A stretch of 64,000 nt of DNA, taken from assembly GCA_003662995.1 (NCBI GenBank), contig QMZC01000001.1, positions 1 to 64,000 of the forward strand, given 5' to 3'. The translations under genes were made by a program, and so were the position numbers. The DNA comes from Archaeoglobales archaeon (GTDB lineage Archaea; Halobacteriota; Archaeoglobi; Archaeoglobales; Archaeoglobaceae). Each line of letters begins with the position of its first letter. Position 1 is the stretch's first letter. Positions 32,811 to 50,134 of the stretch are shown in pieces. Under the pieces are notes generated by a model. That model was not told the DNA's origin, did no database searches, and was given only the letters and a program-made list of their open reading frames with translations.

Positions 32811-34034
<1,224 letters not shown>

Positions 34035-34104
34035 TTAATCTTTGTTTTCGCATCTTTGTCTCTCTATGCAAGCTGTATCGTATTGCAAAGATAAAAATAA
34101 AAAA

Positions 34105-34971
34105 TTAGAATTTGAAGTTTAACATCGCTTCCTGCTTTTTGGGAGAGGGCACAAACTCCACGCCGGGATGCCTTTGCATGAAGGGTTGTGGGTACATCTC
34201 CATAAGCTTGTAAACTTCAGGAGGCACATCAGTTGAGACGTTCAATCCTAGTTCCCTAGCCACTTCAACGGTTATCGGATAATCGTGGGTCCATTTTCCC
34301 TCTGTCAATATCTTTGCGACTTCTTTAGCTCTTTCCTCACCCATCTTGTCTTTTAGAAGGTCGAACACGAATTCTCTAACCTGATTGATTGCTTTCTCAG
34401 CAATATCCGCCAATATCAACGTTTGATCATCAATATCCTTTGGGTCTTTCTTTGAGATTGCGTTTATTATGGAAGGTGCTGGATAATTCATGAGTTGCGG
34501 ATCAACTGGGCCTAACACAGCGTTCGGATCCATTACTATCTCATCGGCAGCCAAAGATATTAGTGTTCCACCACTCATCGCATAGTGGGGAATTATTACT
34601 GTAGTTTTTGCTGGATGCTCCTTTATAGCTCTAGCAATCTGTGTTGCTGCCAAGACCAATCCGCCGGGAGTATGGAGTATTAAATCCAAAGGTTGATCCT
34701 TAGGTGTTGTTCTTATAGCCCTTAAGACTTGCTCGGAGTCCTCAATGTTTATAAATCGGTAAAAGGGAATTCCAAACAAGCCTATACTTTCCTGCCTGTG
34801 AATTAGAGATATGACGTTGCTACCCCTCTTTGAACCAATAGCTCTCATTAAATTTCTCCTTGCAGCCATTAGCTGTCTATACTGGATTTGTGGGGCTAAA
34901 ATTAGGTAAAACAGTAGCAAAAACCAAATCAGGTTTCCAAAAAAGGATAGGGGGTCGTAGTAGTAGTCCAT
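34105..34971 (-). CDS. Membrane-anchored ClpP-fold serine proteinase (SDH family)
   Basis: A serine dehydrogenase proteinase (PF01972-like) of 288 residues. An N-terminal membrane helix (FFGNLIWFLLLFYLIL) precedes a ClpP-like domain. LILHTPGGLVLAATQIARAI forms the oxyanion region, and the nucleophilic Ser is in HYAMSGGTLISLAADEI. MDPNAVLGPVDPQL is also conserved. It probably trims membrane proteins. A separate NfeD-type ClpP protease lies 4 kb away at 38165. The gene stands alone; 187 bases separate it from the crotonase gene. Confidence 0.85.
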   Translation of the reverse strand: MDYYYDPLSFFGNLIWFLLLFYLILAPQIQYRQLMAARRNLMRAIGSKRGSNVISLIHRQESIGLFGIPFYRFINIEDSEQVLRAIRTTPKDQPLDLILHTPGGLVLAATQIARAIKEHPAKTTVIIPHYAMSGGTLISLAADEIVMDPNAVLGPVDPQLMNYPAPSIINAISKKDPKDIDDQTLILADIAEKAINQVREFVFDLLKDKMGEERAKEVAKILTEGKWTHDYPITVEVARELGLNVSTDVPPEVYKLMEMYPQPFMQRHPGVEFVPSPKKQEAMLNFKF

Positions 34972-35158
34972 GTTGGTGTTTTACAAAAAATAAAATATAA
35001 CAATTTTGGATGCTCTAAATTTTATTTGGTAAAATATACAGCAAACATTATTTACAACCATCCCATCTCTCATTAAGGCATCTATAAGAGCGAAACACCT
35101 AACTCAATAAACCTTGTTAATCTATATGTTGCTGACTTTATTAAAAAATAAATTAGAA

Positions 35159-35935
35159 CTAATCCCTATCTTTTCTAAATTCAGCTTTCCTCTTTTCAAC
35201 GAACGCTTTAATTCCTTCTTTGGCATCCTCAGTTGCAAATGATAGTCCAAACAAGTCCCTCTCATACTGTAAACCATCCTTTAAACCCATTCTGTATCCT
35301 CTGTTTACCGCCTGTTTTATAAAACCAACAGCATACGGTGATTTTGATTTAATCGACTCTGCGAGCTTTTGAACCTCCTCCTCAAGCTTGTCGGCAGGAA
35401 CAACCTTGTTAACCAGTCCAAGCCTCTCAGCCTCCATAGCAGAAATTCTCTCAGCAGTCAAACAGAGTTCCATCGCCTTCTTCCATCCCACCAACCTTGA
35501 AAGTCTCTGTGTGCCACCTAAGCCAGGGATGATCCCTAAATTGATCTCGGGCTGTCCAAAGCTCGCATTTTCGCTTGCTACTATTATGTCGCAAGCCATC
35601 GCAATTTCACACCCTCCGCCTAGGGCATATCCATTTACAGCAGCAATTACTGGAACATCTAAGTCTTCCATCTCCTCCAGAGTTTTACCCAATTCTGATA
35701 TTATTTCCCTTGCCTTGACAAAATCACTCTCTGAAAACATTTTGATGTCTGCACCAGCGCAAAAAGCCTTACCTACGCCAGTTATAACAACAACTCTGAT
35801 ATCCTTTTCACTCTTGACTTTCTCAACTAGCTCTTTGAAAGCTTTTGCAACATCCTCGTTTATTGCATTTAGAGCCTCAGGTCTATTCAACCTAACCCAC
35901 AGAATCCCGTCCTTCTTCTCGAACTCAACCGCCAT
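35159..35935 (-). CDS. Enoyl-CoA hydratase/crotonase family protein
   Basis: A crotonase-fold enzyme of 258 residues. Both catalytic regions are visible: FCAGADIKMF near residue 60, and ALGGGCEIAMACD near residue 110 with the first Glu. The second Glu is in FGQPEINLGIIPGLGGTQRL near residue 140. It most likely hydrates 2-enoyl-CoA, for example crotonyl-CoA, in beta-oxidation or butyrate-type metabolism. No partner enzyme is adjacent, so the exact substrate is not known. Confidence 0.9.
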   Translation of the reverse strand: MAVEFEKKDGILWVRLNRPEALNAINEDVAKAFKELVEKVKSEKDIRVVVITGVGKAFCAGADIKMFSESDFVKAREIISELGKTLEEMEDLDVPVIAAVNGYALGGGCEIAMACDIIVASENASFGQPEINLGIIPGLGGTQRLSRLVGWKKAMELCLTAERISAMEAERLGLVNKVVPADKLEEEVQKLAESIKSKSPYAVGFIKQAVNRGYRMGLKDGLQYERDLFGLSFATEDAKEGIKAFVEKRKAEFRKDRD

Positions 35936-36042
35936 AAGTTAGAAATTAATTCAAAATTATTATGTTTTTTGATTTTTATGTTGTTTTGCTTAGGTAGAAA
36001 AGTGATTAATAAAAAGAAAAACAAATTAAAAACTACAAAAAA

Positions 36043-36381
36043 TTAAGCACTCATCTTCTTTGCTTGTTGCTCTGCTATATCTCCAACCACCGGCAATTTA
36101 AACCATTCGCCTTGGTAAGCCTTGAATATACACACTATCCACACGACAAAGGCGATCAGGTTTACTAGTAGCGATAGTGACCATCCGATGAGTGGTATGT
36201 AGCTCAAGATGAAGCTTACAATCCATAGAACTGCGAACACTATTATTGATTGCATTGCATGGAATTTTACGAAGTCACTTTCCTTTTCCAATATAAAGAA
36301 AACAATCCCTGTGATTATGCCTAACACATAGCTCAAAGCTCCTGCAACGTTTTCATCCAAACCTGTTGATGATTTTGCCAT
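36043..36381 (-). CDS. DUF4870-type membrane protein
   Basis: A 112-residue protein with three membrane helices. GALSYVLGIITGIVFFILEKE followed by FVKFHAMQSI is the DUF4870 signature. The function is unknown. It starts 9 bases after the stop of the lipoprotein gene on the same strand, so the two form a small envelope operon. Confidence 0.75.
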   Translation of the reverse strand: MAKSSTGLDENVAGALSYVLGIITGIVFFILEKESDFVKFHAMQSIIVFAVLWIVSFILSYIPLIGWSLSLLVNLIAFVVWIVCIFKAYQGEWFKLPVVGDIAEQQAKKMSA

Positions 36382-36389
36382 GCTATCAC

Positions 36390-36911
36390 TTATTGACCCT
36401 TACTCCAGCCAACTGTAATCTCTTGTTCACCAATTGTTCCACCAATCATAAGCACTTCGTTTTGACCCTTTATGAACATAATTCCAAAACCATCGCTCTC
36501 TATTCCACTGTATTGTACCTTGTAACCTTTACTTTCGATTGCGTTTTTCAAAGCTTCCATATCTTCAGCTTTAACTGTTCTTTTTACAACATACAGAATT
36601 CCTGCTCCCATACCACCTTGACCACTGCCAGAAACAAACGAAGTAGGTTTAGCACCACCATACACGTCATTTAGTATTGGTCTAACCACTGCATCAATAT
36701 CTTTTGCATCCCCAGACAACGGAATTTCAGTAGCCTCAGCGTAAGCATCTTTTTGTGTGCTTTCACTTTCAGGTGCTTGTGTTTCAGTTGGCGTTGGAGT
36801 TGCTTCAGTCTCAGGCTTACTTTCAGGTTTGCTCGAACATCCACTCAATGTAATCCCCAAGGCTAAAAGAGCCAAAACCACTAACAGGATTAGTTTTTTA
36901 TTATTTTTCAT
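36390..36911 (-). CDS. Secreted lipoprotein, function unknown
   Basis: A 173-residue protein with a lipoprotein signal peptide (LLVVLALLALGITLSGC, lipobox LSGC). A Pro/Thr/Glu-rich linker follows (ETEATPTPTETQAPES), then a folded domain of about 110 residues with no recognised family. It would be lipid-anchored on the outer face of the membrane. DUF4870 lies directly downstream. Confidence 0.7.
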   Translation of the reverse strand: MKNNKKLILLVVLALLALGITLSGCSSKPESKPETEATPTPTETQAPESESTQKDAYAEATEIPLSGDAKDIDAVVRPILNDVYGGAKPTSFVSGSGQGGMGAGILYVVKRTVKAEDMEALKNAIESKGYKVQYSGIESDGFGIMFIKGQNEVLMIGGTIGEQEITVGWSKGQ

Positions 36912-37342
36912 TTATTCAACCCCTTTTCTGGGTATCCCTAAATCAAAAATATATATCTTTTTCTGTTTAGTGAACATTAACATCATTATCGTGAGCTTAA
37001 GTGCGTAAAGGAATAACTTTCCATACCGTTACACTTTTCATAGTTAAAAAACTAATAAGGTCTAAATAACTACCCATGAAACACCCAAACGAGAAAAAGA
37101 TGGTCTTGATAAAATCGAGAAGTTGAACTTTTTAAATTCCGATGGTAGCTATCCATAGTGTTGTGAGCTAATTGTAGCTGCCAAAGACTACATCTTAGTA
37201 CCACGAATTGATGGTGAAACGTTTAAAAAGCTCCATTTAAACAAAGTGCAATTACACTTTTTCAATTTCACCTTTACACTTTCAAATACGAAATTAAATT
37301 CTTTAACGAAAATTATATCTTTTAAGAAAATTCCATTAACGT
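36912..37342. other. 431-bp intergenic stretch with weak coding traces
   Basis: No intact gene. On the plus strand, short protein-like pieces appear in different frames: KDGLDKIEKLNFLNSDGSYP near 37090-37155, and ELIVAAKDYILVPRIDGE near 37167-37220. They suggest a decayed gene but are too short to identify. The last 60 bases are AT-rich and probably hold the promoter of the next gene. Confidence 0.35.
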
Positions 37343-37918
37343 ATGGAATTGCTGAAGGCAATATTTGAGACGGCTGAGAGTGGGGACAGAGTCTTAGTAA
37401 CACTACCGGATTTGTACAGCTTTCTGACAATTTCAAGGTCAATAGCGAACTACAGCGACCCGTTCTGGATTCTTTGGAGTGATGCGGCAGTTGAAAGAAT
37501 TAACCATCTGAGTAAAAAATATGGCTTCCCATCGAACGGCGATGCAGTTGTTGTGGAAGCAAGAAAGGACTGCATTTTTCTGAATGAGGTTGAAAAAGTT
37601 AGATTGGATGAACTGCCGAGTATAATTGGTGATTTAACCTACTCCGTTATTATTTCGTTTGGATTGAATTTTTTGAGCATGTACAACCTTAGTTTAAGTA
37701 AAGCCATTGAAGCGATAATGGAGCATGAAAAGGGTTTGTTGTTCAACTGTGTAATAAATAACGATATTGCAAAAAAGCTCATGCCATTTCATGACATCCA
37801 TTTGGAGGTTGTACAGAATGATGCTGTCATTTCTTACCACACATACACAGCAAATCTGAAGTTCAACGTGAGAGATGGAGTTGCAGTACTTTCGGACACA
37901 TTTAGTGTTTACGAATAA
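37343..37918 (+). CDS. Hypothetical protein, possibly degenerate RecA/KaiC-like fold
   Basis: A soluble protein of 191 residues. ESGDRVLVTLPDLYSFLTISRSI and a C-terminal strand pattern recall P-loop-less relatives of KaiC/RecA proteins, but no Walker A motif is present, so this is only a guess. It starts at ATG 37343 after an AT-rich leader and overlaps the DUF357 gene's 3' end by 10 bases on the other strand. Confidence 0.45.
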   Translation: MELLKAIFETAESGDRVLVTLPDLYSFLTISRSIANYSDPFWILWSDAAVERINHLSKKYGFPSNGDAVVVEARKDCIFLNEVEKVRLDELPSIIGDLTYSVIISFGLNFLSMYNLSLSKAIEAIMEHEKGLLFNCVINNDIAKKLMPFHDIHLEVVQNDAVISYHTYTANLKFNVRDGVAVLSDTFSVYE

Positions 37919-38184
37919 TCTAGCAATCCAATTCTCAATCCAATTTCAAGCCAAGCCCATGCCCAGACGACACACTCAAACGCCCTTATTAAATCATTTT
38001 TTTCAAGAAAATAGCGTGTGTCGTCTATGTACGCCTTGATGTTCTCAAAAAACTCTTTTCCGTCTTTATTGGCTTTATTAGCCCTTATTTTCCTGCTTTC
38101 CTCCTCTATTCTCTTGAGCCACCTCAACGTTTCATTTTTAAGTTCGTTCTGCAAGTTCTTATCATCATTCTGGCTTTTTGACAT
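37909..38184 (-). CDS. DUF357 family protein
   Basis: A 91-residue helical protein. The motif AYIDDTRYFLEKNDLIRAFECVVWAWAWLE is shown here in part (DDTRYFLEKNDL, AWAWLEIG) and is typical of the archaeal DUF357 family. It overlaps the nfeD 3' end by 20 bases, so the two are probably translated together. Function unknown. Confidence 0.85.
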   Translation of the reverse strand: MSKSQNDDKNLQNELKNETLRWLKRIEEESRKIRANKANKDGKEFFENIKAYIDDTRYFLEKNDLIRAFECVVWAWAWLEIGLRIGLLDYS

Positions 38185-39448
38185 GCAGAATCAACCCCTC
38201 TCTATCCACAACTACGATCTCATCCCCCCCCTCTAACTCTTCCTCACTCTTTATCTTCCATATCTCCCCCCTAACCTTTGCAAAACCTTTGCCATTCTCA
38301 AAAGAAACGACTTCTCCTTTCTCACCGATAATAGCCTCTCCACCAACCTTTTTCTCAACTTTTTTGAGCTGAACTACTTTAATCAGCAAGAATGTAACAA
38401 CTATTGCCAAACCCAAGCTTATACCAGCAATCAACATTGGAAACGTATTGTAAAATTCTTTTGGCATCAAAGGCTCTTGGAAGAGCATTATCGCTCCCAG
38501 AGTTACACATATTACTGATGCTGCCCCTAAAATGCCATAAGTCGGCGTCAACAATTCTGCAATCAAAAATATTATGCCTGCGATTATGAGCATAATTGAG
38601 ACATAGTTTAGGCTCAAAAAACCGAGTCCGACTAACGAAAGTATCAGGCATATCGCTCCAATTGTTTCAGGCAGTATGCCTGGAGAAGTAAATCCAAAAA
38701 TCAGGCCATACAACCCAATTAAAAACAAAATGGTTGCTACTTGTGGATTGGATAGGATCTCATAAATGCTTGCCTGAAGGGGCTTTTTTATCCTGATAAC
38801 TTCGATAGTATCAAAATGAAGCGTTACGTTTTTCCCATCCAACTTAACTTGCCACCCATTCAACTTTTTAAACAGTTCATCCTTTGAATCTGCTAGAACA
38901 TCAATCACCCCTCTCTCATAAGCTTCTCTTGCCGATAAACTCAAACTTTCCGTTACGAACTTTTCTACAACATCAATGGGTCTTCCCCTTTTCTCGGCAA
39001 TACTCCTTATGTAGCTGGCAATGTAGTTGACGGTTTTATTCTCAATTCTTTGGCCCAAATAATCACTCGTTATTGGTGTTGCCGCACCCACTGACGTTCC
39101 ATTGCTCATTACTGCGATATTTCCAGAAATTAGGATGAAAGAGCCGGCAGATGCGGAAAAAGCTCCTTGCGGGTAAACGTATGTTATAACTGGAATTTTA
39201 CTGTTGAGTATTTGGGAAACTATTTTTTCTGTTGACATGACCAACCCACCGGGAGTGTTTAATACTACTAATATCGCATCAGCATTTTCTTTTTCAGCAA
39301 TGTTAAATGCGTGGTTGATGTGAATGACAGTGCCTTCATTTATTTCACCATTTATCTCAACCTCTACAATTTTTGCAGCTTTTGCATTCACAGAAAGGGA
39401 AAACGAAAGTATGAAAAGTACAAAGATGAGGAGCCTAATCCAGCCCAT
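38165..39448 (-). CDS. NfeD-type membrane-bound ClpP-class protease
   Basis: A signal peptide or first helix (LLIFVLFILSFSLSVNAKA) is followed by a ClpP-like domain (LVVLNTPGGLVMSTEKI, nucleophile region FSASAGSFILISG, then GAATPITSDYLG). Four or five membrane helices and a C-terminal OB-fold NfeD domain (GEVVSFENGKGFAKVRGE) complete it. In the archaeal relative PH1510 this type cleaves the stomatin partner. No stomatin gene is adjacent; DUF357 overlaps downstream. Met 39448 after TAGGATT is preferred over TTG 39466. Confidence 0.88.
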   Translation of the reverse strand: MGWIRLLIFVLFILSFSLSVNAKAAKIVEVEINGEINEGTVIHINHAFNIAEKENADAILVVLNTPGGLVMSTEKIVSQILNSKIPVITYVYPQGAFSASAGSFILISGNIAVMSNGTSVGAATPITSDYLGQRIENKTVNYIASYIRSIAEKRGRPIDVVEKFVTESLSLSAREAYERGVIDVLADSKDELFKKLNGWQVKLDGKNVTLHFDTIEVIRIKKPLQASIYEILSNPQVATILFLIGLYGLIFGFTSPGILPETIGAICLILSLVGLGFLSLNYVSIMLIIAGIIFLIAELLTPTYGILGAASVICVTLGAIMLFQEPLMPKEFYNTFPMLIAGISLGLAIVVTFLLIKVVQLKKVEKKVGGEAIIGEKGEVVSFENGKGFAKVRGEIWKIKSEEELEGGDEIVVVDREGLILHVKKPE

Positions 39449-39537
39449 AATCCTACTGTACAACATAGGTATAAATTTTTATCGTAGGGAAAAAGAATAA
39501 AACTAAACAAAAAACAAAAACAAAAATTAGTTAAATG

Positions 39538-41010
39538 CTAAACCTGCTCAACCTTTTGCACAACCTTAGCCTCCACTCCATAAAAAACTGCGTAAGCTAT
39601 TGTTGAAGCTATCAAACCTGGAACAACCGGATAAATCCAGTACGTCTTGTAATACAGTAGATACCATGCTATTGAAACTACAACAGCTACAATCATTGAA
39701 GCGATTGCTGGCATCTTTGCTGGTTTTTCTAAGTACAATGCAGCAACCAATGGAATTAGAAATGCGGCAGTTATTACTGAGAAGCTTAACCCAACTATCA
39801 CTACTATGTAGCCTGGAGGCTTTATTGCCAGAATTAAAGGTATTAAAGCAAATACGAATACGCTCAACCTTGTAAGCTTTAAAGCCAAGCTATCGCTTAT
39901 CCTCACACCAACCTGAACTATATCTCTAACAAACGAAGTTGCTAATACGTGGAGCAACGAATTAATAGTGCTCATTGCAGCAGCTATGACCGCTGTTAGC
40001 AGTAAAGCGTTTATGCCTATAGGAAACAACTTCATCGCTATGAATGGAACAACTAAGTCGGGATTTTTCATGTACTTTACTGGATCATCGTAGTTTGGAA
40101 TTATCAACCATCCAAAGGGGCCGATGCTGAAAACGCATATTGCAAACAAGCCAATAATCAGGGGTGTTAGAATCATGCCCTTAGCTATAACCCTATCATC
40201 CCTTGCAGCAATAAATCTGACGACAAGTTGTGGACTTGCAAGTTGGGCGATGCTGATTGCGAATGTTAAGCTTAGAATAAACGGTATGACCATTCCCGCC
40301 TTCATTATTGGTGGCGGAGCTAACTTTCCGAATTCAAACAAGTCTTTTCCATTTATTATACTGTCAACACTCTGCAAGGAATTTATAGCGTTTATAGGGC
40401 CGCTTAAGTAAATCATTAGTGTTATGAACAATGCTATACCACCAAACAAAATCAGCAGTCCTTGGATTAAATCCGTCATAACAACAGCCCTAAATCCGCC
40501 AATGGCTGTGTAAAGCATTACAACTATGCCTGTTATGATCAACCCCGTTTTGTAGTCCAGATTGAGCATCACTTCGAACAGATTTCCTGCCCCCTTGTAG
40601 ATGGAGATCATGTAGAATTGGAAGAAGAACAGGATTACCAAAGCAGCAACAACTTGAGCGATTCTGCCGTACTTCATCTTAAAAAGCTCTGGGATTGTTA
40701 AGGCGCCATGCTTATCGGCTAACTTCTTCATTGGTGGAGCTATTAAAATCCATGCAGAAATTGCAAATAGGACGTGGAAAAATATTAGGAAGGCTGACCA
40801 TTGAAAACCTGCTAAGAATCCAAAACCGCCACCTCCGAGAAACGCTGCTGTGCTGAAGTACGTTGCAAAGAATGAGAAGCTAACAACCAAAACACCTAAA
40901 TTTTTCCCAGCCAAGTAAAAGTCGAGTAAACCCTTGGTTTTTCTGTATTCGTAGATCCCGATGAAAATCATCAAGATTATGTAAGCCACAAACACAGCTT
41001 CAATTATCAT
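39538..41010 (-). CDS. Sodium:solute symporter family protein
   Basis: A multi-pass transporter of about 490 residues with some 13 membrane helices. The SSS family features are visible: FSFFATYFSTAAFLGGGGFGF early, GGFRAVVMTDLIQG in the middle, and AAAMSTINSLLHVLATSFVRD late. The likely solute is an organic acid, because the gene follows a CoA ligase gene. An AGAGGT site points to ATG 41010 (41016 is the alternative). A 28-residue membrane peptide gene lies 30-36 bases upstream on the same strand. Confidence 0.85.
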   Translation of the reverse strand: MIIEAVFVAYIILMIFIGIYEYRKTKGLLDFYLAGKNLGVLVVSFSFFATYFSTAAFLGGGGFGFLAGFQWSAFLIFFHVLFAISAWILIAPPMKKLADKHGALTIPELFKMKYGRIAQVVAALVILFFFQFYMISIYKGAGNLFEVMLNLDYKTGLIITGIVVMLYTAIGGFRAVVMTDLIQGLLILFGGIALFITLMIYLSGPINAINSLQSVDSIINGKDLFEFGKLAPPPIMKAGMVIPFILSLTFAISIAQLASPQLVVRFIAARDDRVIAKGMILTPLIIGLFAICVFSIGPFGWLIIPNYDDPVKYMKNPDLVVPFIAMKLFPIGINALLLTAVIAAAMSTINSLLHVLATSFVRDIVQVGVRISDSLALKLTRLSVFVFALIPLILAIKPPGYIVVIVGLSFSVITAAFLIPLVAALYLEKPAKMPAIASMIVAVVVSIAWYLLYYKTYWIYPVVPGLIASTIAYAVFYGVEAKVVQKVEQV

Positions 41011-41045
41011 TTTCATCTACCTCTTTTTGCGCAACAACTCAAATA

Positions 41046-41132
41046 TCACACCCTCTTTGCTTTTCTCAAAGCTACAACAAATCCGAAAATCATCAAACAG
41101 ATTGATGCGATGTAAGTTGCAATAATAACCAC
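41046..41132 (-). CDS. 28-residue membrane peptide before the symporter
   Basis: A perfect GGAGGTGG site (41137-41144) precedes GTG 41132 by 4 bases. The product reads MVIIATYIASICLMIFGFV, then VALRKAKRV: one membrane helix with a positive tail. Its position directly upstream of a sodium:solute symporter matches the small accessory peptides known beside SSS transporters. It is too short for standard gene calls. It starts about 20 bases after the stop of the CoA ligase gene, so ligase, peptide and symporter probably form one operon. Confidence 0.7.
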   Translation of the reverse strand: MVIIATYIASICLMIFGFVVALRKAKRV

Positions 41133-41154
41133 AAAACCACCTCCAATTAATAAA

Positions 41155-42411
41155 TCAAACCCTCACAAGCCTCTTAGCCTTACCCTCAAACCTCTCAATG
41201 CTGCCGTGTGGTAAAGCAATCAGCTTTGGTTTAAATCCTACGAACTCTTTAATATCCCTCGTAATTTTTGATTGCAATTCTTCACTGCCTTCGTACAAAA
41301 TTTTAACACCATTTCCAACCTCAATCTTGTAGTGCTTTATTCCGTAACTTGCCAGTATTTGTTCAACATCGCTCGGATAGAACTTAACGCCCTTTGTATA
41401 TCACCATGTCGTCTGTCCTGCCCCTTATTCTTTTGATGGTCAAATGCTCAATTCCACACTCACATTGCTCGTTACTAACAATAGCGGAAACCTCACCACT
41501 TCTGTATCTTATCAAAGGCATCGCTTCCCTGTTTAACGATGTGTAAACGATCTCACCCTCCTCACCCTCACCCAAAACCTCGCCATCTTCATTGACAATC
41601 TCTACAATGTAGTTGTCCTCCCACATGTGTAAGCCTTGCCTATGACTACACTCAAACCCAACAGTCCCAACACCGCCCATTTCTGTTAGTCCGGGAATGT
41701 CGAAGGCTGTAACGTCAAATAAGCTCTCAATCTGCTTTCGCATCTCATCACTCCAAGGTTCTGCCCCCAACAGCATCTTCTCCAATGCCAAATCTTTAAC
41801 GTCTATGCCCATCTCTCCTGCAACTTCTGCAATTCTGATTGGATAGCTTGCTGTGGCACACAAGACTGTAGTGTTAAAGTCTTTCATGAACTTAATCTGA
41901 TCTCTTGTATTTCCCGATCCAATCGGTATTACGAAAGCATTGAGTTCGTCTGCGGCAAAGTGGAAGCCAAAACCCCCATTCCACAAGCCAAATGCTGGAG
42001 TTATTTGTATAACATCTTTCGATGTTACATTTGCAATATAAAATGCCCTAAGCATCATTTCCTTCCACTGCTCAACATCATTCCTCGTGTATGGGATTAT
42101 AACAGGCTGTCCAGTTGTACCACCGCTCATCTGGATTCTTACAATTTTTTCATTGCCAACGCAACACATCTTTAAAGGATAAGCATTCCTCAAATCCTGT
42201 TTTGTCGTTAGTGGTAGTTTTGTTATGTCCTCTGTTGTCTTAATGCTATCAACGTCGACGTTACACTCCTTGAATTTTTGTCTATAAAAAGGGCAGTTTT
42301 GATAGACGTACTTCACGATTGCCCTAAATCTCTTATTTTTATTTCTTCAATCTCTTTTCTTGGTAGAAATATCCTTTTCTCAGTCTCTCTCCTTTTTGGG
42401 GGAGTTGTCAT
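41155..42411 (-). pseudogene. Phenylacetate-CoA ligase-like gene with two frameshifts
   Basis: Joined frames give about 415 residues of the PaaK/adenylate-forming family. The core is intact: MSGGTTGQPVIIPYT near residue 75, DIPGLTEMGG, and EEGEIVYTSLNREAMPLIRY. The first break, near 42321-42332, separates LPRKEIEEIKIR from RAIVKYVYQNCPFYR. The second is a CCC run at 41390-41392 (one base too many), where the frame ends in KGR instead of continuing KGVKFYPSDVEQ. The C-terminal domain then runs to the true stop at 41155. It would activate an aryl or alkyl acid with ATP and CoA. It heads the ligase-peptide-symporter unit. Confidence 0.8.
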
Positions 42412-42681
42412 TGATAATTGAATGATTCCTGAGTTTATAAACTTTTCCCATTTATGGGTATAATCTTTAATTATCAGATGTGATTGACTAAAATATCGGT
42501 TGCATCTCACTATGCGTAATTCCCATTTTGTATCCTCACCACCTTCATAACTTCAACGATGAACGATTCATAGCTTGTTTTCTCAGCGTACGTTTTTAAG
42601 CAACAAATTTAGCCGGACGTAATTTTATATAGTGGTTAACATGTATCTGTTGGGATAATACATAGTTTATTCATGCTATGG

Positions 42682-43021
42682 TTAGTTTTTAGCTCTTTTC
42701 TCATCTTCTTTTGATATACCCATGGCTGCAAGATAACCAAGCATAATCGAGGCAATCAATTTCAGCCCCTCAATACCACTCAAAAATAAAGCAGGAATTA
42801 GTTAGTGCAATAAATATGGCGATAAGAGGGTTATAGAGCATAGATTGCCTGAAAAGAGGAATCACTACTAATGCGACGATAGAGTATATGATACACCTAC
42901 AATAACTGCTGTAGATTCCAAACAACAACATAATGTAAAAAATAAAGGATGCTATCCCGACAGCTATAAATATTGCTCCTATCAATCTCAAAGCACCATT
43001 GAGAACGTTTTGCGGTCTCAT
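42682..43021 (-). pseudogene. Small membrane protein broken by a 4-bp duplication
   Basis: About 110 residues with four membrane helices. The first frame (MRPQNVLNGALRLIGAIFIAVG onward, shown in part) ends early at 42770. Just before the break, TTAGTTAG at 42798-42805 is a perfect tandem duplication of four bases. Removing one copy restores reading into PALFLSGIEGLKLIASIMLG and a charged tail SKEDEKRAKN, ending at 42682. It overlaps the upstream secreted-protein gene by 4 bases. The family is not recognised. Confidence 0.65.
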
Positions 43022-43468
43022 ATTGCACTATAATGATATTCGAATACTTTCTTTGTCAGAGTTTTGCCATGCATTTTGTATCCTTTGACAATCCACGCTC
43101 CATTAGAGCATTCCAGAGTTAGGGCATCTATGTCTTTCAATTTGTCTACGTTCTTTATGAGCGCATTAATCACTGCAATTCTCCCTTCTGTAATTGCACG
43201 ATGGGTTAAATAGGTATAATCCTTCCTTTGAATAACTTTTTGAACTTTACTGTACGTCAACCTTTCCATGCCCTTAAGGTGAATAGTTATTGTAAATGAA
43301 TCTGTTTCTTCCAAAACTTTCCAGTAAAGTGGTATTCCCCAAACATCGATAAGGCGATCCCACAAACTTGCTTTACACTCGTAAGTGATCGAATACGTCC
43401 TTTGCCAAAGCGACGCTAATACACGCCATCAACACCATCAACCCAATTGCTATGCTCACAGCCCTCAT
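43018..43468 (-). pseudogene. Small secreted protein with one frameshift
   Basis: An ATG at 43468 after GGTGG begins a signal peptide (MRAVSIAIGLMVLMACISVA) followed by KDVFDHL. The frame then shifts near 43376-43390 into ECKASLWDRLIDVWGIPLYW and continues 115 residues to 43018. The two pieces fit together as one secreted protein of about 148 residues. Its stop overlaps the start of the membrane protein gene (ATGA type), so both were one operon. Function unknown. Confidence 0.6.
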
Positions 43469-43621
43469 ATAACCACCAAATCTAATTTTATGTTTGTATT
43501 TATTCTTTACTCAAACTTATTTTGAAAGAGCATTATGAATTCACAGTTGTATTGAGTAACTAATTATTAAAAACTTGCTAATACAGACAAAATTTTTATT
43601 ACTTTAATTGGTTTTGGTGTT

Positions 43622-44329
43622 ATGATATATGAAGCTTTTTCCTCTCAGAGACGTGTGAGAACACTCCGCCAATTGCAACTCTCTCCGGCAAACTTTTCAA
43701 AATTACAGCAAAAAACTGGATTAAATCACACATCACTTTTAATCCATCTAAGAAAACTACTCTCATGCGGACTTATTGAGAAAGAAGGTAAAGTATACAA
43801 GTTGAGTCAGACTGGAAAACTTATTTATGGTACGTTAGACAAACTTGACAGGTTTATTATTGCTTTTGAAAGAGGTATCGATTTTTGGATTGAGCACGAC
43901 TTGAGTACAAGTCCAGAAGAGTTGTTACTCAGACTTGGTGATCTCGGACACTACGAGATTGTATCGTGTAAGAATGAAAATCCAATGTGCTTTGTTGAAA
44001 GGATTGGCAAGATACTCAGCAAATCACGGTGGGTAAGGATTGTTTCAAGTATATCGCTCCATATCTACCATTTTTGTCTGCCGAGATAGATGTAGCTGTT
44101 GTTGCTACTATGGATGTAGCGGAAATTTTTAAGAAAAGCTATCCATTGATTAGAGCAGTTCAGGTTGTTGAAGGAATAAAAATGATGTGTGTGACTGCCA
44201 AAGTAGGTGTCATTCTTGGTTTATATTTGCTGAATGGTGAGTTTGACTTGAATAGAGTTGTAATCTCTTAGGGATGCTGAAGGCATAAAGTGGGGAAAGG
44301 ATATCTTCAAGTATTTTGCAAAACGTTGA
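43622..44329 (+). pseudogene. HTH regulator with FilR1-like sensor domain, two frameshifts
   Basis: The N-terminal winged helix-turn-helix reads LSPANFSKLQQKTGLNHTSL then LLSCGLIEKEGKVYKLSQTG. The C-terminal half resembles the FilR1/DUF1724 domain of methanogen regulators and ends RDAEGIKWGKDIFKYFAKR. Breaks occur near 44030-44055 and near 44270. A ligand-responsive repressor role is likely for the intact form. It is divergent from the small secreted protein operon and may once have controlled the neighbouring genes. Confidence 0.7.
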
Positions 44330-44393
44330 AAATTTAACTGAACACTTTAACTTGCTACCTAAACTCTGTATTATGGCTCGTAGAACACTTTAA

Positions 44394-44615
44394 GTCTCTC
44401 CAAAACGAATACCTCTTGAATTCCCCTATCGTGGGGAAAACTGTTCCAATAGTCCAATTCTCACCGTTGTTTGCTTATCCGAGGTTTGCCCTACTCCTGT
44501 CATAACTGCAGAACATGACTCTTCGGGGACAAGGAAGCTTTTCGAAAATCTGTTTAGAAAAGCTGGAGATTGGAGCAAGTTATTAGATACCGAGATTGCA
44601 CGGTTTTGTGAATAA
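44394..44615 (+). pseudogene. Unassigned 73-residue open frame, probably a remnant
   Basis: Stop-to-stop open frame without a start codon. It reads SPKRIPLEFPYRGENCSNSP, VVCLSEVCPTPVITAEHDSS and KLFENLFRKAGDWSKLLDTE. The composition looks protein-like, with three Cys, but I recognise no family. It follows the broken regulator and may be the end of another decayed gene. Confidence 0.3.
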
Positions 44616-44732
44616 CTACTCGACATTGAAAGCTGAATACACTCGCCACTCCGCTTAAAGTGATGAACATTGCAATTGTGTTCAGTAGTATTCTGTTAAA
44701 GTATTTTAAATCATTGCAACAAAATTCTTCAA

Positions 44733-45665
44733 ATGCTCAAAAAAATTGTTGAGTCGATAAGAAATTATGAAGGACTAAGAAGGAAGAAATACGCTGGTGT
44801 TTTCGGCAAAAAAATTGGTGTGGAGATTGGAGAGGATGCTGCTGTTATTGATGTGGGAACTGAAGACCTACTCTTATTTACAGCAGACGGAATTTGGGAT
44901 GTTGTTTTGCAAAAAGATTTACAGTGGGGAGGATTCGTATCCATTCTTGTAAACATCCATGACATCGCCGCGATGGGAGGAATAGCAATTTCAGCCGTTA
45001 ACATCGTTTCTGTGGTTGACGATAAAGCGTTGGATGAGATATCAATGGGGATGAGGAGGGCTTGTGACTTGTATGGTGTTGGAGTAGTAAATGGACATAT
45101 TCACCCAAATGCAAACACAAACTCCATAGATGTGGCGATGATTGGAAAGGTTAAGAGAAATTCGGTTGTCTATTCAAACACCGCAAAAGCTGAAGATTAT
45201 TTGGTTTATGCAGTTGATTTAGATGGCAATATTCATCCAAAACTTAAGTACAACTTCGATTCAACTAAAAAAGATGCGAGAATTTTGAGGATGCAAATGG
45301 AGGCGATGCAAAAAATTGGTGAGGAAAAAATTGCATCTGCTGGGAAAGATGTTAGCAATGCTGGATTGGTTGGTACGATAGGCATGATGATGGAAGTGAG
45401 TAGGAAAGGTTGTACGATTGATCTAAATTCTGTGCCTAAGCCCGATGGAATTGAAATGGGGCATTGGCTTAAAGTTTATCCTGCTGCTGGTTTTGTTATT
45501 ACCACCCCCACACCAGAAAAGGCTATAAAAATCTTTGAAAAACATTTTCTAACTGCCAGTATTATTGGAAGGGTTAACAACAGCCTTAAAGTTGAACTTT
45601 GTTTGAATGGTGAAAGAAAGACGGTTTTTGATTTCGATGGGGAAAGTATCTTAGGATTATTTTAA
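44733..45665 (+). CDS. AIR synthase-related (PurM/SelD/HypE superfamily) protein
   Basis: A 310-residue member of the PurM-like ATP-dependent superfamily. EIGEDAAVIDVGTEDLLLFTADG near residue 32 and VNIHDIAAMGGIAISAVN near residue 72 form the shared ATP-binding core, and KDVSNAGLVGTIGMMME appears in the second half. It is close to the 'methanogenesis marker 2' type of AIR-synthase-like proteins, whose substrate is unknown. It is not PurM itself by length or motif. No partner gene is adjacent. Confidence 0.75.
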   Translation: MLKKIVESIRNYEGLRRKKYAGVFGKKIGVEIGEDAAVIDVGTEDLLLFTADGIWDVVLQKDLQWGGFVSILVNIHDIAAMGGIAISAVNIVSVVDDKALDEISMGMRRACDLYGVGVVNGHIHPNANTNSIDVAMIGKVKRNSVVYSNTAKAEDYLVYAVDLDGNIHPKLKYNFDSTKKDARILRMQMEAMQKIGEEKIASAGKDVSNAGLVGTIGMMMEVSRKGCTIDLNSVPKPDGIEMGHWLKVYPAAGFVITTPTPEKAIKIFEKHFLTASIIGRVNNSLKVELCLNGERKTVFDFDGESILGLF

Positions 45666-45803
45666 CATAATGAAATTACAAAATAGCTTTTCTGGATATA
45701 TGGGCAGGAGCAATGCCGATTCACAATAACAAAAAACAACTATTTCAATCACACTTTGTATTAATAATATCGAAAAAGTTAATTAGAGTTGGCACTACAT
45801 CAA

Positions 45804-46853
45804 ATGATGAAACCTACCGACTTGCTTAAAAAACCTGTAGATTGTGAATTTATCTCTCAACTGCTTAACAGGGCTATTGATGGCATTAGAACATACTATA
45901 TCTTGTTAACTGCCATAAAACTTGGAATTTTCGATGTTCTACAAACTCCAAGAAATGCAAAAACGCTTTCAAAGGAATTGGGTTGCGATGAAAAACTTCT
46001 GTCCTTATTTTGCGAAAGTTTATGTGAGTTAGGAATTCTAACAAAGATAAATGATGCTTACGCAAATTCTGAGATGAGTAGGATGTATTTAACTATTAAT
46101 TCTCACTTATCCCAGCAAATTCCTGTTATTAACACAGAAAGAATCGTTAACTTGTGGTGCAATTTGCATGAAATTCTTAAAAAAGGAGCTACAAAGTTTA
46201 GCAGAGAAGAGTTCTTTAGCAATTATGCGATACATTCAATGGCACAAACCAGTCTTCTTGGTGAGTTGCAGGAAACTGTAGAATTCATATCAAATTTTCC
46301 AGAATTCAAAAATGCAAAGAAGTTACTTGATTTGGGCGGAGGACACGGATTTTACGCAATCGCCTTTACAGCGATAAACGAAAATTTAAAAGCTTACGTT
46401 TTTGATTTGCCAAACGTCATAGATAGGACCAAAGAGTATATAAAGAAATACAATGCTACAAGGGTTGAGGTAATCTCTGGAGACTTTTTTGTAGATGAGC
46501 TTGGCAAAGACTATGACATAATCTTTTCCTCATACAATCCCGGTGGAAAAAAGCTGGAGTTAATTCCAAAAATACATTCGAGCTTAAAAGAAGGTGGACT
46601 ATACATTAACAAGCAGTTTTTCCCCGATGTAACTGATAGCAATGCATTGTTAAATCTTGAATGGAATTTGTGGGTATTTGATGGGGTAAAAAAGGTAGAA
46701 AAGGGAAATAAGATATACAGTTTTAAGAACGATGTGAATTTAGATGAATACATTGAATCATTGGAGAGTGCTGGGTTTGAGATTTTAGAGGTTGTAGATG
46801 TGAAATCAAATGTTAAGGGAAGCAAGATTATAGTGACAAAGAAGGTTACTTAG
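45804..46853 (+). CDS. SAM-dependent methyltransferase, O-methyltransferase type
   Basis: A protein of about 349 residues. The N-terminal half is a winged-helix dimerisation domain (YYILLTAIKLGIFDVLQ, CDEKLLSLFCESLCELGIL). The C-terminal half has the SAM motif KKLLDLGGGHGFYAIAF, then YVFDLPNVIDRTKEYI. This is the layout of plant-like small-molecule O-methyltransferases, which are also common in methanogens and Archaeoglobi. The substrate is unknown. TTG 45789 is an upstream alternative start. The 3' end overlaps the small paralogue pair by 8 bases. Confidence 0.8.
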   Translation: MMKPTDLLKKPVDCEFISQLLNRAIDGIRTYYILLTAIKLGIFDVLQTPRNAKTLSKELGCDEKLLSLFCESLCELGILTKINDAYANSEMSRMYLTINSHLSQQIPVINTERIVNLWCNLHEILKKGATKFSREEFFSNYAIHSMAQTSLLGELQETVEFISNFPEFKNAKKLLDLGGGHGFYAIAFTAINENLKAYVFDLPNVIDRTKEYIKKYNATRVEVISGDFFVDELGKDYDIIFSSYNPGGKKLELIPKIHSSLKEGGLYINKQFFPDVTDSNALLNLEWNLWVFDGVKKVEKGNKIYSFKNDVNLDEYIESLESAGFEILEVVDVKSNVKGSKIIVTKKVT

Positions 46854-47100
46854 ATTCTGCATCCTCAATCATTTCTTTTGGAATAGGTATAACTATTGCC
46901 TTACCACCAATGTACGATTTGTGGATTGTAACAATTCCATTCCTTTTTGAATACAACACCTTACGAATGTTCACGTATTTGTCCAATTCTGATGGCGGTA
47001 TGTACAGTCTAACAACCTCACCACTAACATCCACAACATCTGCTATTCCATCGACCAACAACAATATCAAATCGTCAACGTTCAATTCAACTAACCTCAT
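46846..47100 (-). CDS. Small protein, second of a tandem paralogue pair
   Basis: An 84-residue protein (from MRLVELNVDDL). It aligns by eye with the upstream gene: DDLILLLVDGIADVVDVSGEVV matches DIAKLLKEGTADVTIDGEKV, and AIVIPIPKEM matches TIAIPKEW. The beta-hairpin pattern ending in 'IPKE' recalls swapped-hairpin AbrB-like proteins, but this is uncertain. The two genes lie 4 bases apart and form an operon. Confidence 0.55.
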   Translation of the reverse strand: MRLVELNVDDLILLLVDGIADVVDVSGEVVRLYIPPSELDKYVNIRKVLYSKRNGIVTIHKSYIGGKAIVIPIPKEMIEDAESK

Positions 47101-47104
47101 AATT

Positions 47105-47323
47105 TCATCCCGGAATCTTAACAACAATCAAATCATTATTTTTCCACTCTTTTGGAATTGCAATTGTGTTCATTTTCCTCCCTCCTTTTTTAAACTTCAC
47201 ATTTTCTACAACTTCTCTTGGTTTGAGCATTAATATTACTTTCTCACCATCTATTGTTACATCCGCTGTACCCTCTTTTAGGAGTTTTGCTATGTCACGA
47301 ATTGTTAGCAAACAAACCTTCAT
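47105..47323 (-). CDS. Small protein, first of a tandem paralogue pair
   Basis: A 72-residue protein starting MKVCLLTIRDIAKLLKEGTA. Its body, DVTIDGEKVILMLKPREVVE and MNTIAIPKEWKNNDLIVVKI, looks like two short beta modules. It precedes its paralogue by 4 bases. Their shared pattern suggests an old gene duplication; together they could form a heterodimeric DNA- or RNA-binding protein or an antitoxin-like pair. No toxin is nearby. Confidence 0.55.
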   Translation of the reverse strand: MKVCLLTIRDIAKLLKEGTADVTIDGEKVILMLKPREVVENVKFKKGGRKMNTIAIPKEWKNNDLIVVKIPG

Positions 47324-47520
47324 ACCATCGATGTTGTTTCACATTATTAAAACAATGTGTTACAAATTATTTAAAGGCAAAATTGGTGAGGGGAAAATTA
47401 AAATTTTTGTGACAAATAAAGACACGGCTGAAATTTTATGGTTTGTATCGTGGTAGCACTGTTAATTTTGTTTTTAAATCAGTTATTTTATCATCCGCCA
47501 TCTCAACAACCTAAGTAATC

Positions 47521-47528
47521 TTTAAATA
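47521..47528 (+). promoter_or_regulatory. TATA box of the S13-S4-S11-RpoD operon
   Basis: TTTAAATA lies 23 bases before the rpsM ATG, the position expected for an archaeal TATA box with a very short or absent leader. Confidence 0.6.
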
Positions 47529-47551
47529 TCTTCCATCATTTTGCCATTTAC

Positions 47552-47992
47552 ATGGCGTTCAAACACATAGTTAGGATTGCTGATGCAGATTTGGATGGTA
47601 AAAAGAACGTAATGTTCGCTCTCACCGGCGTTAAAGGAATCGGCTTGAGGATGGCTAAATCGATAACCAACTACTTAAGCATAGACGCCAAAGCAAAGCT
47701 CGGAGAGTTGGATGATGAGACAATTCAAAAACTCAAGAAGTTTGTTGAGGAAGAAATTGAAAGCTTGCCGGCATGGATGCTGAATAGAAGAAAAGACCCA
47801 CATACAGGAGAAAATCTACATTTGGTGAGCAAGGACATAGATTTTGCAAGGATGGTTGACGTGGAAAGGCTAATCAGAATGAAAGCCTATAGAGGTATCA
47901 GACATGCGAGAGGTAAGAAGGTTAGGGGGCAGAGAACAAGAACGACTGGCAGGAAAGGAAGGACGGTTGGAGTTATAAGGAGAAAGAAGTAA
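47552..47992 (+). CDS. rpsM: Ribosomal protein S13 (uS13)
   Basis: Small-subunit protein S13, which bridges to the large subunit. FKHIVRIADADLDG begins it, ALTGVKGIGLRMAKSI is the helix-hairpin-helix, and the basic tail GIRHARGKKVRGQRTRTTGR is diagnostic. The length of 146 residues is archaeal. It heads the S13-S4-S11-RpoD operon and S4 follows after 27 bases. Confidence 0.97.
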   Translation: MAFKHIVRIADADLDGKKNVMFALTGVKGIGLRMAKSITNYLSIDAKAKLGELDDETIQKLKKFVEEEIESLPAWMLNRRKDPHTGENLHLVSKDIDFARMVDVERLIRMKAYRGIRHARGKKVRGQRTRTTGRKGRTVGVIRRKK

Positions 47993-48019
47993 AGGGTAAA
48001 GAGTTAAGGGGTGAATTAA

Positions 48020-48538
48020 ATGGGAGATCCAAAAAGACACAGAAAGAAATACATTTCTCCAACCCATCCTTGGGATAAGGCAAGGCTTGAAAAGGAGATG
48101 CAGATTGTAATCAAGTACGGGTTGAGGAACAAGAGGGAGTTGTGGAGGTTCCAGAACATTCTGAGAAAGTATAGGCGAGTGGCAAGAGACTTGTTAGCTA
48201 AGATAAATCTACCTGGTAGAGAAGGAGAGTTGGCAAAGGTTAAAGCCATGACTGTCATTAAAAAGCTGACAAGGATGGGAATATTGGATGAAAATGCGAC
48301 CTTAGATGACATCCTAAACTTGAACGTTGAGGATTTCCTAGAACGAAGACTACAAACGATGGTTTACAGGCAAGGTTTAGCCAATACAATAAAGCAAGCA
48401 AGACAAATGGTTGTTCATGGACACATAGCCGTTGACGGTAGAAGGGTTACAGTCCCAAGTTACATTGTAAATAGGGATGAGGAGAGCAAGATTTCGTATT
48501 ATGTAAATTCTCCATTTGCAAAAGCTAAGGAGGCTTGA
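48020..48538 (+). CDS. rpsD: Ribosomal protein S4 (uS4)
   Basis: A 172-residue archaeal S4, which initiates small-subunit assembly. [20 protein letters not shown] is the archaeal N-terminus, and the S4 RNA-binding domain reads [13 protein letters not shown] then [19 protein letters not shown]. rpsK starts 2 bases after the stop. Confidence 0.97.
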
Positions 48539-48540
48539 TT

Positions 48541-48939
48541 ATGGCGGAAAAGAAGAAGGGTAAGTGGGGTATTGCACATATATTTTCATCCTACAACAAC
48601 ACGATTATCACGATAACTGATATTACGGGATGTGAGACGATTGTAAGGATAAGCGGTGGAATGATTGTTAAAGCTGATAGGGATGAAGGAAACCCATACA
48701 CAGCAATGCAGGCAGCCATAAGAGCTGCTGAAATTGCCAAAGACAAGGGGATTGAAGGTGTGCACATCAAAGTTAGGGCTCCTGGTGGCAACAAACACAC
48801 AACACCTGGACCAGGAGCGCAAGCAGCAATAAGGGCTTTGGCAAGGGCTGGACTAAAAATTGGTAGAATAGAGGACGTTACACCAATACCACACGATGGC
48901 ACAAGACCTCCAGGCGGTAAGAGGGGCAGAAGGATTTAA
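48541..48939 (+). CDS. rpsK: Ribosomal protein S11 (uS11)
   Basis: A 132-residue S11 from ATG 48541. [20 protein letters not shown] and the tail [19 protein letters not shown] are invariant in archaea. It forms the mRNA exit platform of the ribosome. rpoD starts 33 bases downstream in the same transcript. Confidence 0.97.
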
Positions 48940-48972
48940 GATTTATTTGATTAAGCTTAAATTGGGGTAGCC

Positions 48973-49761
48973 ATGAAAATTGAAATTGTAGAAGAGGACG
49001 AACTCAACATTAAGTTTATTCTTTATGATGCTCCAGTAGCCTTTGCAAATTCATTCAGGAGAGCTATGAAAAGTCTCGTTCCTGTGATGGCAGTGGATTA
49101 CATTGATGTTTATTTAAACTCATCATATCTGTTTGATGAGATTTTAGCCCACAGAATTGGGTTGATACCGATAAAAACGGATTTAAACAGGTTTAACATG
49201 CAAAATGAATGTGTTTGTGAGGGTGAAGGTTGTCCGAATTGCCAAGTATCTTTTAGGCTTAACGTCGAAGGTCCAAAAATGGTGTATTCTGGTGATTTTA
49301 TTTCAGATGATGAGGAGATCAGGCCCGTTTATGATAACATACCTGTTGTTGAGCTTTTTAAGGGGCAACAACTAATGATTGAGGCTGTTGCTAGGCTTGG
49401 AACTGGAAAAGAGCATTCAAAGTTCCAGCCTGTCTCAATTTGCACTTACAGAATAATTCCTGAGATTGAGATACAGGGGGAATGTAACAGTTGCAAGGCT
49501 TGTGTTGAGGCATGCCCAAGGGATATTCTCGAAAACAGGGATGGCAAAATAGTTGTCAAAGATGTTTTAAACTGTTCAATGTGCATGGAGTGCGTTAAAG
49601 TTTGCGAAGAGAACGCAATAGAAGTCATGGAGACAAACAACTATCTTTTCATGGTTGAGGGGATTGGTCAACTACCAATTAGAGAAGTAATGACAAAAGC
49701 GTTGGAAATTATCAAGAGTAAAGCTGAGGAAATGAACAAGATAATTGAGGGTTTGGTCTGA
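48973..49761 (+). CDS. rpoD: RNA polymerase subunit D with ferredoxin-like insert
   Basis: Subunit D is the archaeal counterpart of bacterial alpha and eukaryotic Rpb3, and nucleates polymerase assembly with subunit L. SFRRAMKSLVPVMAVDYIDV is the dimerisation core. Residues about 170-215 form a ferredoxin-like domain with two clusters: CNSCKACVEACP and CSMCMECVKVCEENA. Eight cysteines are present, so two 4Fe-4S centres are possible, as known in some archaea. The C-terminal dimerisation segment follows (FMVEGIGQLPIREVM). Confidence 0.96.
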   Translation: MKIEIVEEDELNIKFILYDAPVAFANSFRRAMKSLVPVMAVDYIDVYLNSSYLFDEILAHRIGLIPIKTDLNRFNMQNECVCEGEGCPNCQVSFRLNVEGPKMVYSGDFISDDEEIRPVYDNIPVVELFKGQQLMIEAVARLGTGKEHSKFQPVSICTYRIIPEIEIQGECNSCKACVEACPRDILENRDGKIVVKDVLNCSMCMECVKVCEENAIEVMETNNYLFMVEGIGQLPIREVMTKALEIIKSKAEEMNKIIEGLV

Positions 49762-49879
49762 AGTTTAAAAGGTTAAGAAGGTTTGGTTTGACTTTTGATT
49801 TGGTTCATTGTTTAATTGTTCCCTTAACAATAATCTGCCAAACAGACTACAAGTGGCAGTTGTTATCGAAAATACTTAA

Positions 49880-50134
49880 CATTTTCGAATTGCAAAAGAC
49901 AAAGAAGACCATGTTCTTCTCAACGAAGATTTCTCACGTCGTAGAGGATACAGAAAGATCTTTCCATGCTGCAACTTCGATGTAGTCAGATTGGATAGAA
50001 CGTTGAGTTATCCTCTCAGCATTTTCGTTTCAAAAAGCTTGGAGGAAGACAAAAGGAGATTTAGGGCTTTGAAGAGCTTATGGCCTGCTGAGAAAACGGG
50101 AGAGTTCAAACCCGTCAGCCGTCAGGGCTGTTAG
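49880..50134 (+). pseudogene. Unassigned 84-codon open frame in the gap after rpoD
   Basis: The 427 bases between rpoD and the tRNA gene hold no intact gene. One stop-to-stop frame looks coding: DKEDHVLLNEDFSRRRGYRK, FDVVRLDRTLSYPLSIFVSK and KSLWPAEKTGEFKPVSRQGC. It has no start codon. I do not recognise it; a decayed mobile-element gene is one possibility because it sits next to a tRNA. Confidence 0.3.

Follow-up and report, generated by a model that had tools for sequence, protein, structure and literature searches.

A conserved 28-residue single-helix peptide encoded ahead of an SSS symporter in the Archaeoglobaceae is a probable symporter accessory subunit

Introduction

The locus considered here raises the question of whether a 28-codon open reading frame (ORF), placed between a CoA ligase and an SSS-family symporter, encodes a partner of that symporter. 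Transporter subunits can go unnoticed when ORFs are filtered by length, and this peptide is overlooked by standard annotation. To our knowledge, the companion helices of Na+/solute symporters have been little studied beyond human SGLT2-MAP17, and searches of the available literature library returned no publication using the phrase "symporter small accessory protein" and none describing a prokaryotic SSS symporter with a small helical subunit. The ORF was analysed within a stretch of 64,000 nucleotides (the window) from the genome of an Archaeoglobales archaeon (contig QMZC01000001.1), a 187-contig assembly, and compared with the equivalent loci of its relatives.

Results

The features of the locus, as read from the window, are the following:

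41046–41132, minus strand: 28-aa single-helix peptide ORF (GTG at 41132–41130, TGA at 41048–41046)
41137–41144, minus strand: ribosome-binding site GGAGGTGG, read from the DNA, 4 nt 5' of the GTG
39538–41016, minus strand: SSS-family symporter, 492 aa (PF00474, E = 7.3e-59)
41155–42411, minus strand: PaaK-type (phenylacetate) CoA ligase, frame broken twice, located by match to a relative's intact ligase
42337–42411, 41390 to about 42340, and 41155–41394, minus strand: N-terminal, main and C-terminal pieces of the ligase

Transcription on the minus strand runs from the PaaK-type CoA ligase through the 28-codon ORF to the SSS symporter. The ORF translates as MVIIATYIASICLMIFGFVVALRKAKRV, and the plus-strand letters CCACCTCC at 41137–41144 correspond to GGAGGTGG on the minus strand. 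Reading of the window bore out the initial annotation of this ORF, including its GTG start, its ribosome site, its one helix and its position directly upstream of the symporter, with 29 nt separating the peptide stop from Met1 of the symporter. The symporter may start instead at Met3 (41010), the start position of most relatives. Membership of the SSS family is clear from PF00474 (200.1 bits; cut-off, 22.8) and TIGR00813 (184.4 bits; cut-off, 184), and the relatives of the symporter with solved structures include SGLT1/2, SMCT1 and CHT1 chains. For the peptide, no Pfam or NCBIfam model scored above cut-off, the sole NCBIfam match, PGAP-CTERM (E = 0.075), falling far short of its cut-off.

The CoA ligase that had been described upstream does adjoin the peptide, but it is not intact in the window. 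When the nearest relative's 418-aa ligase, which is intact, was matched to the window, residues 1–25 fell at 42411–42337 in one frame, residues about 29–341 in a second frame (ending at 41390), and residues 340–418 back in the first (41394–41158), placing frameshifts at about 42337–42379 and about 41390; the peptide and symporter frames are intact. The relative's ligase is unbroken and 93% identical over the main piece, and the ligase occupies a single frame in the other 28 loci holding both ligase pieces. The two breaks may reflect mutation or assembly error. The 310-aa piece scored below the PaaK equivalog cut-offs (TIGR02155, 310.2 of 646.3 bits; NF041878, 331.6 of 700 bits) and, because the gene is broken in the window, only the designation "PaaK-type" is claimed.

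A homologue of the symporter (E ≤ 1e-60) was present in 30 of 55 Archaeoglobaceae genomes, the nearest named relative being 89% identical (Archaeoglobaceae archaeon isolate AUK153), and the identical 30 genomes carry the peptide. Reading the upstream DNA locus by locus placed a short homologous ORF immediately 5' of the symporter in all 30, encoding 25–30 residues between the PaaK-type ligase and the equivalent symporter and preceded by sites comparable to that of the window. The initial annotation had called for the same peptide to be sought ahead of homologous symporters, and would have been contradicted had the peptide or its ribosome site not been conserved among relatives; across the symporter-bearing genomes the peptide, its position and its ribosome site are all kept. 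In a search of 392 genomes of the phylum, a profile of the peptide (19 rows) matched these 30 genomes of the family with E values of at most 1.7e-5, including 10 that lay outside the building of the profile (G022, G147, G178, G186, G195, G213, G238, G248, G270 and G289). Beyond the family, only four matches occurred at E ≤ 0.01 (E = 0.004–0.0099), all in longer frames (66–540 aa), and these are probably due to chance. The profile search returned no peptide match in 20 of the 25 family genomes that lack the symporter, and likewise none in G026 and G030; the remaining three (G302, G311 and G316) were not listed by name, such that absence there was not directly seen. No confident match to the peptide occurred apart from the symporter in the genomes searched.

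The ligase homologue lies directly upstream in 29 of the 30 loci, in the order ligase, peptide, symporter. The exception is G022, for which the fetched locus (L085) contains no ligase match and the symporter has internal stops; this cassette is decaying, with the peptide still recognisable (A21 replaced by G). Because of the broken symporter, the locus was omitted from the 29-locus analyses of overlap, pN/pS, helix face, first helix and background. Stretches of 12 kb or 7.5 kb from four complete genomes and from the nearest relative were compared with each other and with a 16-kb section of the window. Among ORFs of at least 80 aa, none but the ligase and the symporter recurred between these five loci and the window, and no shared homologues were detected in the cassette flanks. 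The three-gene cassette has thus been kept while its surroundings changed. The surroundings differ in every genome compared (L106–L109, L006 and window positions 34001–50000), as if the cassette had moved as a unit. Given the fixed order in 29/30 loci and the restriction of shared genes to the cassette, the proposal that ligase, peptide and transporter form one uptake-activation operon is well supported by the genomics.

Peptide and symporter genes are closely spaced in most loci. In 19 of 29 loci the peptide stop and symporter start share 4 nt, and in one more they share 1 nt; two loci have a 2-nt gap and seven, including the window, have gaps of 9–53 nt, such that 22/29 loci have an overlap or a gap of ≤2 nt (Met3 is taken as the start of the window symporter in this count; from Met1 its gap is 29 nt). 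An ORF of 24–80 aa that is transmembrane-like, has a ribosome site and ends at the start of the next gene was found at 27/29 loci, compared to 3/291 in a background of ORFs of 200 aa or more (n = 291) from 400 kb of four relatives. Two loci were missed: L081, whose start is disturbed, and L075, which lies at a contig edge and had its coordinates shifted. Without the ribosome-site condition, the counts were 28/29 and 21/291 (3/34 among the polytopic-like background ORFs). A looser ribosome-site pattern flagged 29/29 loci, the disturbed L081 included, and is not counted as evidence.

Purifying selection acts on the peptide frame. For nine disjoint locus pairs, pN/pS was 0.29 (95 synonymous differences at 187.6 sites; 77 non-synonymous differences at 532.4 sites), and over 19 partly overlapping pairs it was 0.27, compared to 1.06 and 1.85 for shifted-frame controls on the latter set, indicating that it is the amino-acid sequence that is selected. 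Taken with the homologues in 30/30 genomes and the excess over background (27/29 versus 3/291), this makes the 28-codon ORF more than a chance frame; it is a real gene.

Conservation is concentrated on one side of the helix. The 28 distinct peptides all have Y7, S10, G17 and A21, with either M or I at position 14; the invariance of Y, S, G and A was first noticed without a motif pattern, and the pattern later used in the first-helix comparison (Y, S, G, A/G) was matched by all 29 peptides. The 3-4-3-4 spacing of Y7-S10-M14-G17-A21 corresponds to one a/d face of a packed helix, with a mean entropy of 0.18 bits at these five positions versus 1.95 bits at other core positions, and the periodicity of conservation exceeds that of shuffles (p about 1e-4). 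The basic tail noted at the outset holds among the homologues (C-tail net charge, +1 to +4), while the first six residues carry −1 to 0. Under the positive-inside rule, the peptide, with its basic C-tail and non-basic N-terminus, is predicted to insert N-out/C-in.

Small ORFs also precede other SSS symporters of these archaea. In a second clade represented in the genome of the window, an ORF of 33–44 aa with a single helix and a core ending in LIWgLrWR lies upstream in 15/15 loci read, and in a third clade an ORF of 47–52 aa with two hydrophobic stretches (KxLE...PF...TYxYW...RW) does so in 15/15; these loci are those fetched from 18 and 44 genomes with a match, respectively, and both counts rest on reading of the ORF listing, except that L110 of the second clade, at a contig edge, was read separately from the other 14. 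Choice of an upstream start lengthens some of the listed frames in both clades. The LIWgLrWR ORF (L002, contig C28; L110–L123) often begins M-[LFI]-G-x-E, like members of NF045580, a family discussed below. Neither the own-genome copy of this ORF nor that of the third-clade ORF (L003, contig C94; L124–L137) has a Pfam or NCBIfam match over cut-off. Automated counting fell short of this reading: it returned 2/15 and 0/15 for the two clades because a ribosome site was required, along with a start close to the match. A variant returned 2/15 and 9/15, with 0/15 for NF045580 loci, in our reading because it used first starts and picked the symporter frame poorly. Upstream of the fourth SSS symporter of the genome is a DUF4212-like ORF (14.8 bits versus a cut-off of 30), and the NF045580 peptides of relatives precede SSS genes in 15/15 loci fetched. 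Two genomes (G011 and G021) have a second symporter, 57–58% identical to that of the window, with a different peptide upstream, of 39 codons in G021 and in an equivalent longer frame in G011. At these second-symporter loci (L028 and L029), the 39-aa peptide, MAEILGLDPAIGG...NAKRRGDL in L029, has an NF045580-like LG-x-D start and is a possible link between the 28-aa and NF045580 types.

Discussion

The 28-codon ORF probably encodes a single-helix subunit that serves as a dedicated accessory to the adjacent SSS symporter. This role, raised by the initial annotation, is supported by the conservation of the peptide together with its position and ribosome site, from which we infer a physical or functional interaction with the symporter. 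The small membrane ORFs ahead of the two other symporter clades, and the NF045580 peptides ahead of SSS genes, also speak for it. Against it stand the confinement of the family to the Archaeoglobaceae, the failure of NF045580 to find the peptide, the non-overlapping genes of 7/29 loci and the broken ligase frame in the window.

The likeness of the peptide to the N-terminal helix of the symporter (TM0) bears on its origin. The peptide MVIIATYIASICLMIFGFVVALRKAKR and the first helix of the symporter MIIEAVFVAYIILMIFIGIYEYRKTKG share 12 of 27 residues (counted by eye), and the peptide could be a detached duplicate of TM0 that works as an extra or exchangeable TM0. When the peptide profile was scored without gaps along the symporter alignment, the N-terminal stretch came out far ahead (24.8, against 11.1 for the runner-up), and with reciprocal scoring matrices over 26 columns the median TM0 or peptide scored above all 1500 background frames. 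Part of this likeness, however, comes from the start Met and the basic tail that both have: when only the core is scored, shuffles reach the score in 1.6% of cases (0.016) and 8–14 of the 1500 background frames score equally (36–55 on the narrowest core). The conserved G is offset by one position between peptide and TM0, NF045580 peptides are unlike the TM0 of their own symporters, and peptides are no closer to the TM0 of their own symporter than to mismatched ones (own pairs better in just 12/29), a count on which concerted evolution of the two was also rejected. With a strong signal over 26 columns, a weak one in the hydrophobic core and no own-pair excess, duplication was rejected as the main explanation and is retained only as a rival, one that we consider rather doubtful. 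As a claim on origin it is compatible with the accessory-subunit reading, and the sequence likeness leaves it a possible source of the peptide. No natural fusion of peptide and symporter was present in the 30 loci read; with the peptide predicted to be C-in and the symporter N-out, a forced fusion would be artificial.

A second alternative is that the ORF is a leader peptide or cis-coupling device, where its translation delivers ribosomes to the symporter start and the product itself has no role. The 4-nt stop-start overlap in the majority of loci and the good ribosome site 5' of the small ORF would fit such a device, which nevertheless needs no amino-acid selection, no four invariant face residues and no always-basic C-tail; further, the gaps of 9–53 nt in 7/29 loci weaken strict coupling, yet the peptide is conserved. 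We regard this explanation as unlikely. It is more improbable still that the peptide is a free-standing small membrane protein, acting in membrane stress or regulation, with nothing but the operon in common with the symporter. Single-helix proteins of similar size do regulate unrelated bacterial membrane proteins, among them MgtR (30 aa), MgtU (28 aa) and MgtS (31 aa) (PMC10710835, in excerpt), but the present peptide had no confident match away from the symporter and none was seen in symporter-less Archaeoglobaceae. That the ORF arose by chance, an idea encouraged by its extreme shortness and by the abundance of random ORFs of such size within the window, runs against conservation, selection and position, and is refuted by pN/pS and by the held-out genomes to the point of being hardly credible.

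As an accessory subunit, the peptide would insert with its N-terminus out and its C-terminus in, and translational coupling would keep peptide and symporter at nearly the same level. The face formed by Y7-S10-M14-G17-A21 may pack on a symporter helix, stabilising or maturing the symporter as MAP17 does on SGLT2. The symporter would import an aryl- or alkyl-carboxylate with Na+, which the PaaK-type ligase would then trap as a CoA thioester; it is the ligase that suggests a carboxylate as the imported solute. A 28-residue, clade-specific helix with an explicit candidate binding face offers a minimal system for companion-helix function, and the prediction follows that attempts to express these archaeal symporters heterologously may fail if the peptide is left out.

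A more speculative extension, to which we give limited credence, is that the SSS symporters of the Archaeoglobaceae are obligate two-subunit machines, each clade with its own co-translated small membrane subunit (the 28-aa, 33–44-aa, about 50-aa and NF045580 types). The 28-aa type would then be a detached second copy of the first symporter helix, a removable TM0-like scaffold and a one-helix prokaryotic counterpart of SGLT2-MAP17.

Several known systems share parts of this arrangement. The DUF4212 (PF13937) and DUF485 companions are likewise small membrane proteins whose genes adjoin an SSS gene; DUF485/YjcH pairs with ActP. DUF485 proteins are longer than 28 aa, and the DUF4212 model spans 79 positions and has no sequence match to the peptide. 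A permease, a companion membrane protein and a CoA ligase serving one acid, as proposed for the cassette, have a parallel in PaaL, PaaM and phenylacetyl-CoA ligase. PaaL is an SSS protein, and we know of no indication that PaaM is a 28-aa helix. In the bacterium Pseudomonas putida these three proteins serve phenylacetate, and both PaaL and PaaM are reported as essential in P. putida U (PMC3224230, in excerpt).

By analogy only, MAP17 (PDZK1IP1) is also one helix paired with an SLC5/SSS transporter, though it is eukaryotic and longer than the 28-aa peptide. Human SGLT2 is described as requiring MAP17 as an auxiliary subunit, the single helix of which contacts TM13, moves with the fixed bundle of SGLT2 and acts as a scaffold or stabiliser (excerpted from PMC10803289).

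The closest likeness in layout is to NF045580 (symport_access, "symporter small accessory protein", 33 positions), whose members are single helices of about 33 aa, each encoded immediately ahead of an SSS symporter gene. The peptide has this layout, its single-helix ORF of about 30 aa lying directly 5' of the symporter gene, and the helix pattern of the family (Y, with small residues at +3, +10 and +14) aligns with it by eye. The best gapless register against the NF045580 profile is at the expected offset of 6, a score that 43.6% of shuffles equal; the NF045580 model gave no match to the peptide over its 35-bit cut-off, and the family search of its own genome returned 0 matches. NF045580 peptides, unlike the 28-aa peptide, start MLG-x-[DE] and end in W/N/R; they precede other SSS clades, 25–30% identical to the window symporter, and no PaaK was found within up to 1500 bases upstream of their loci. 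Small accessory peptides of SSS symporters are already a named class, and the NF045580 model does not cover the 28-aa family.
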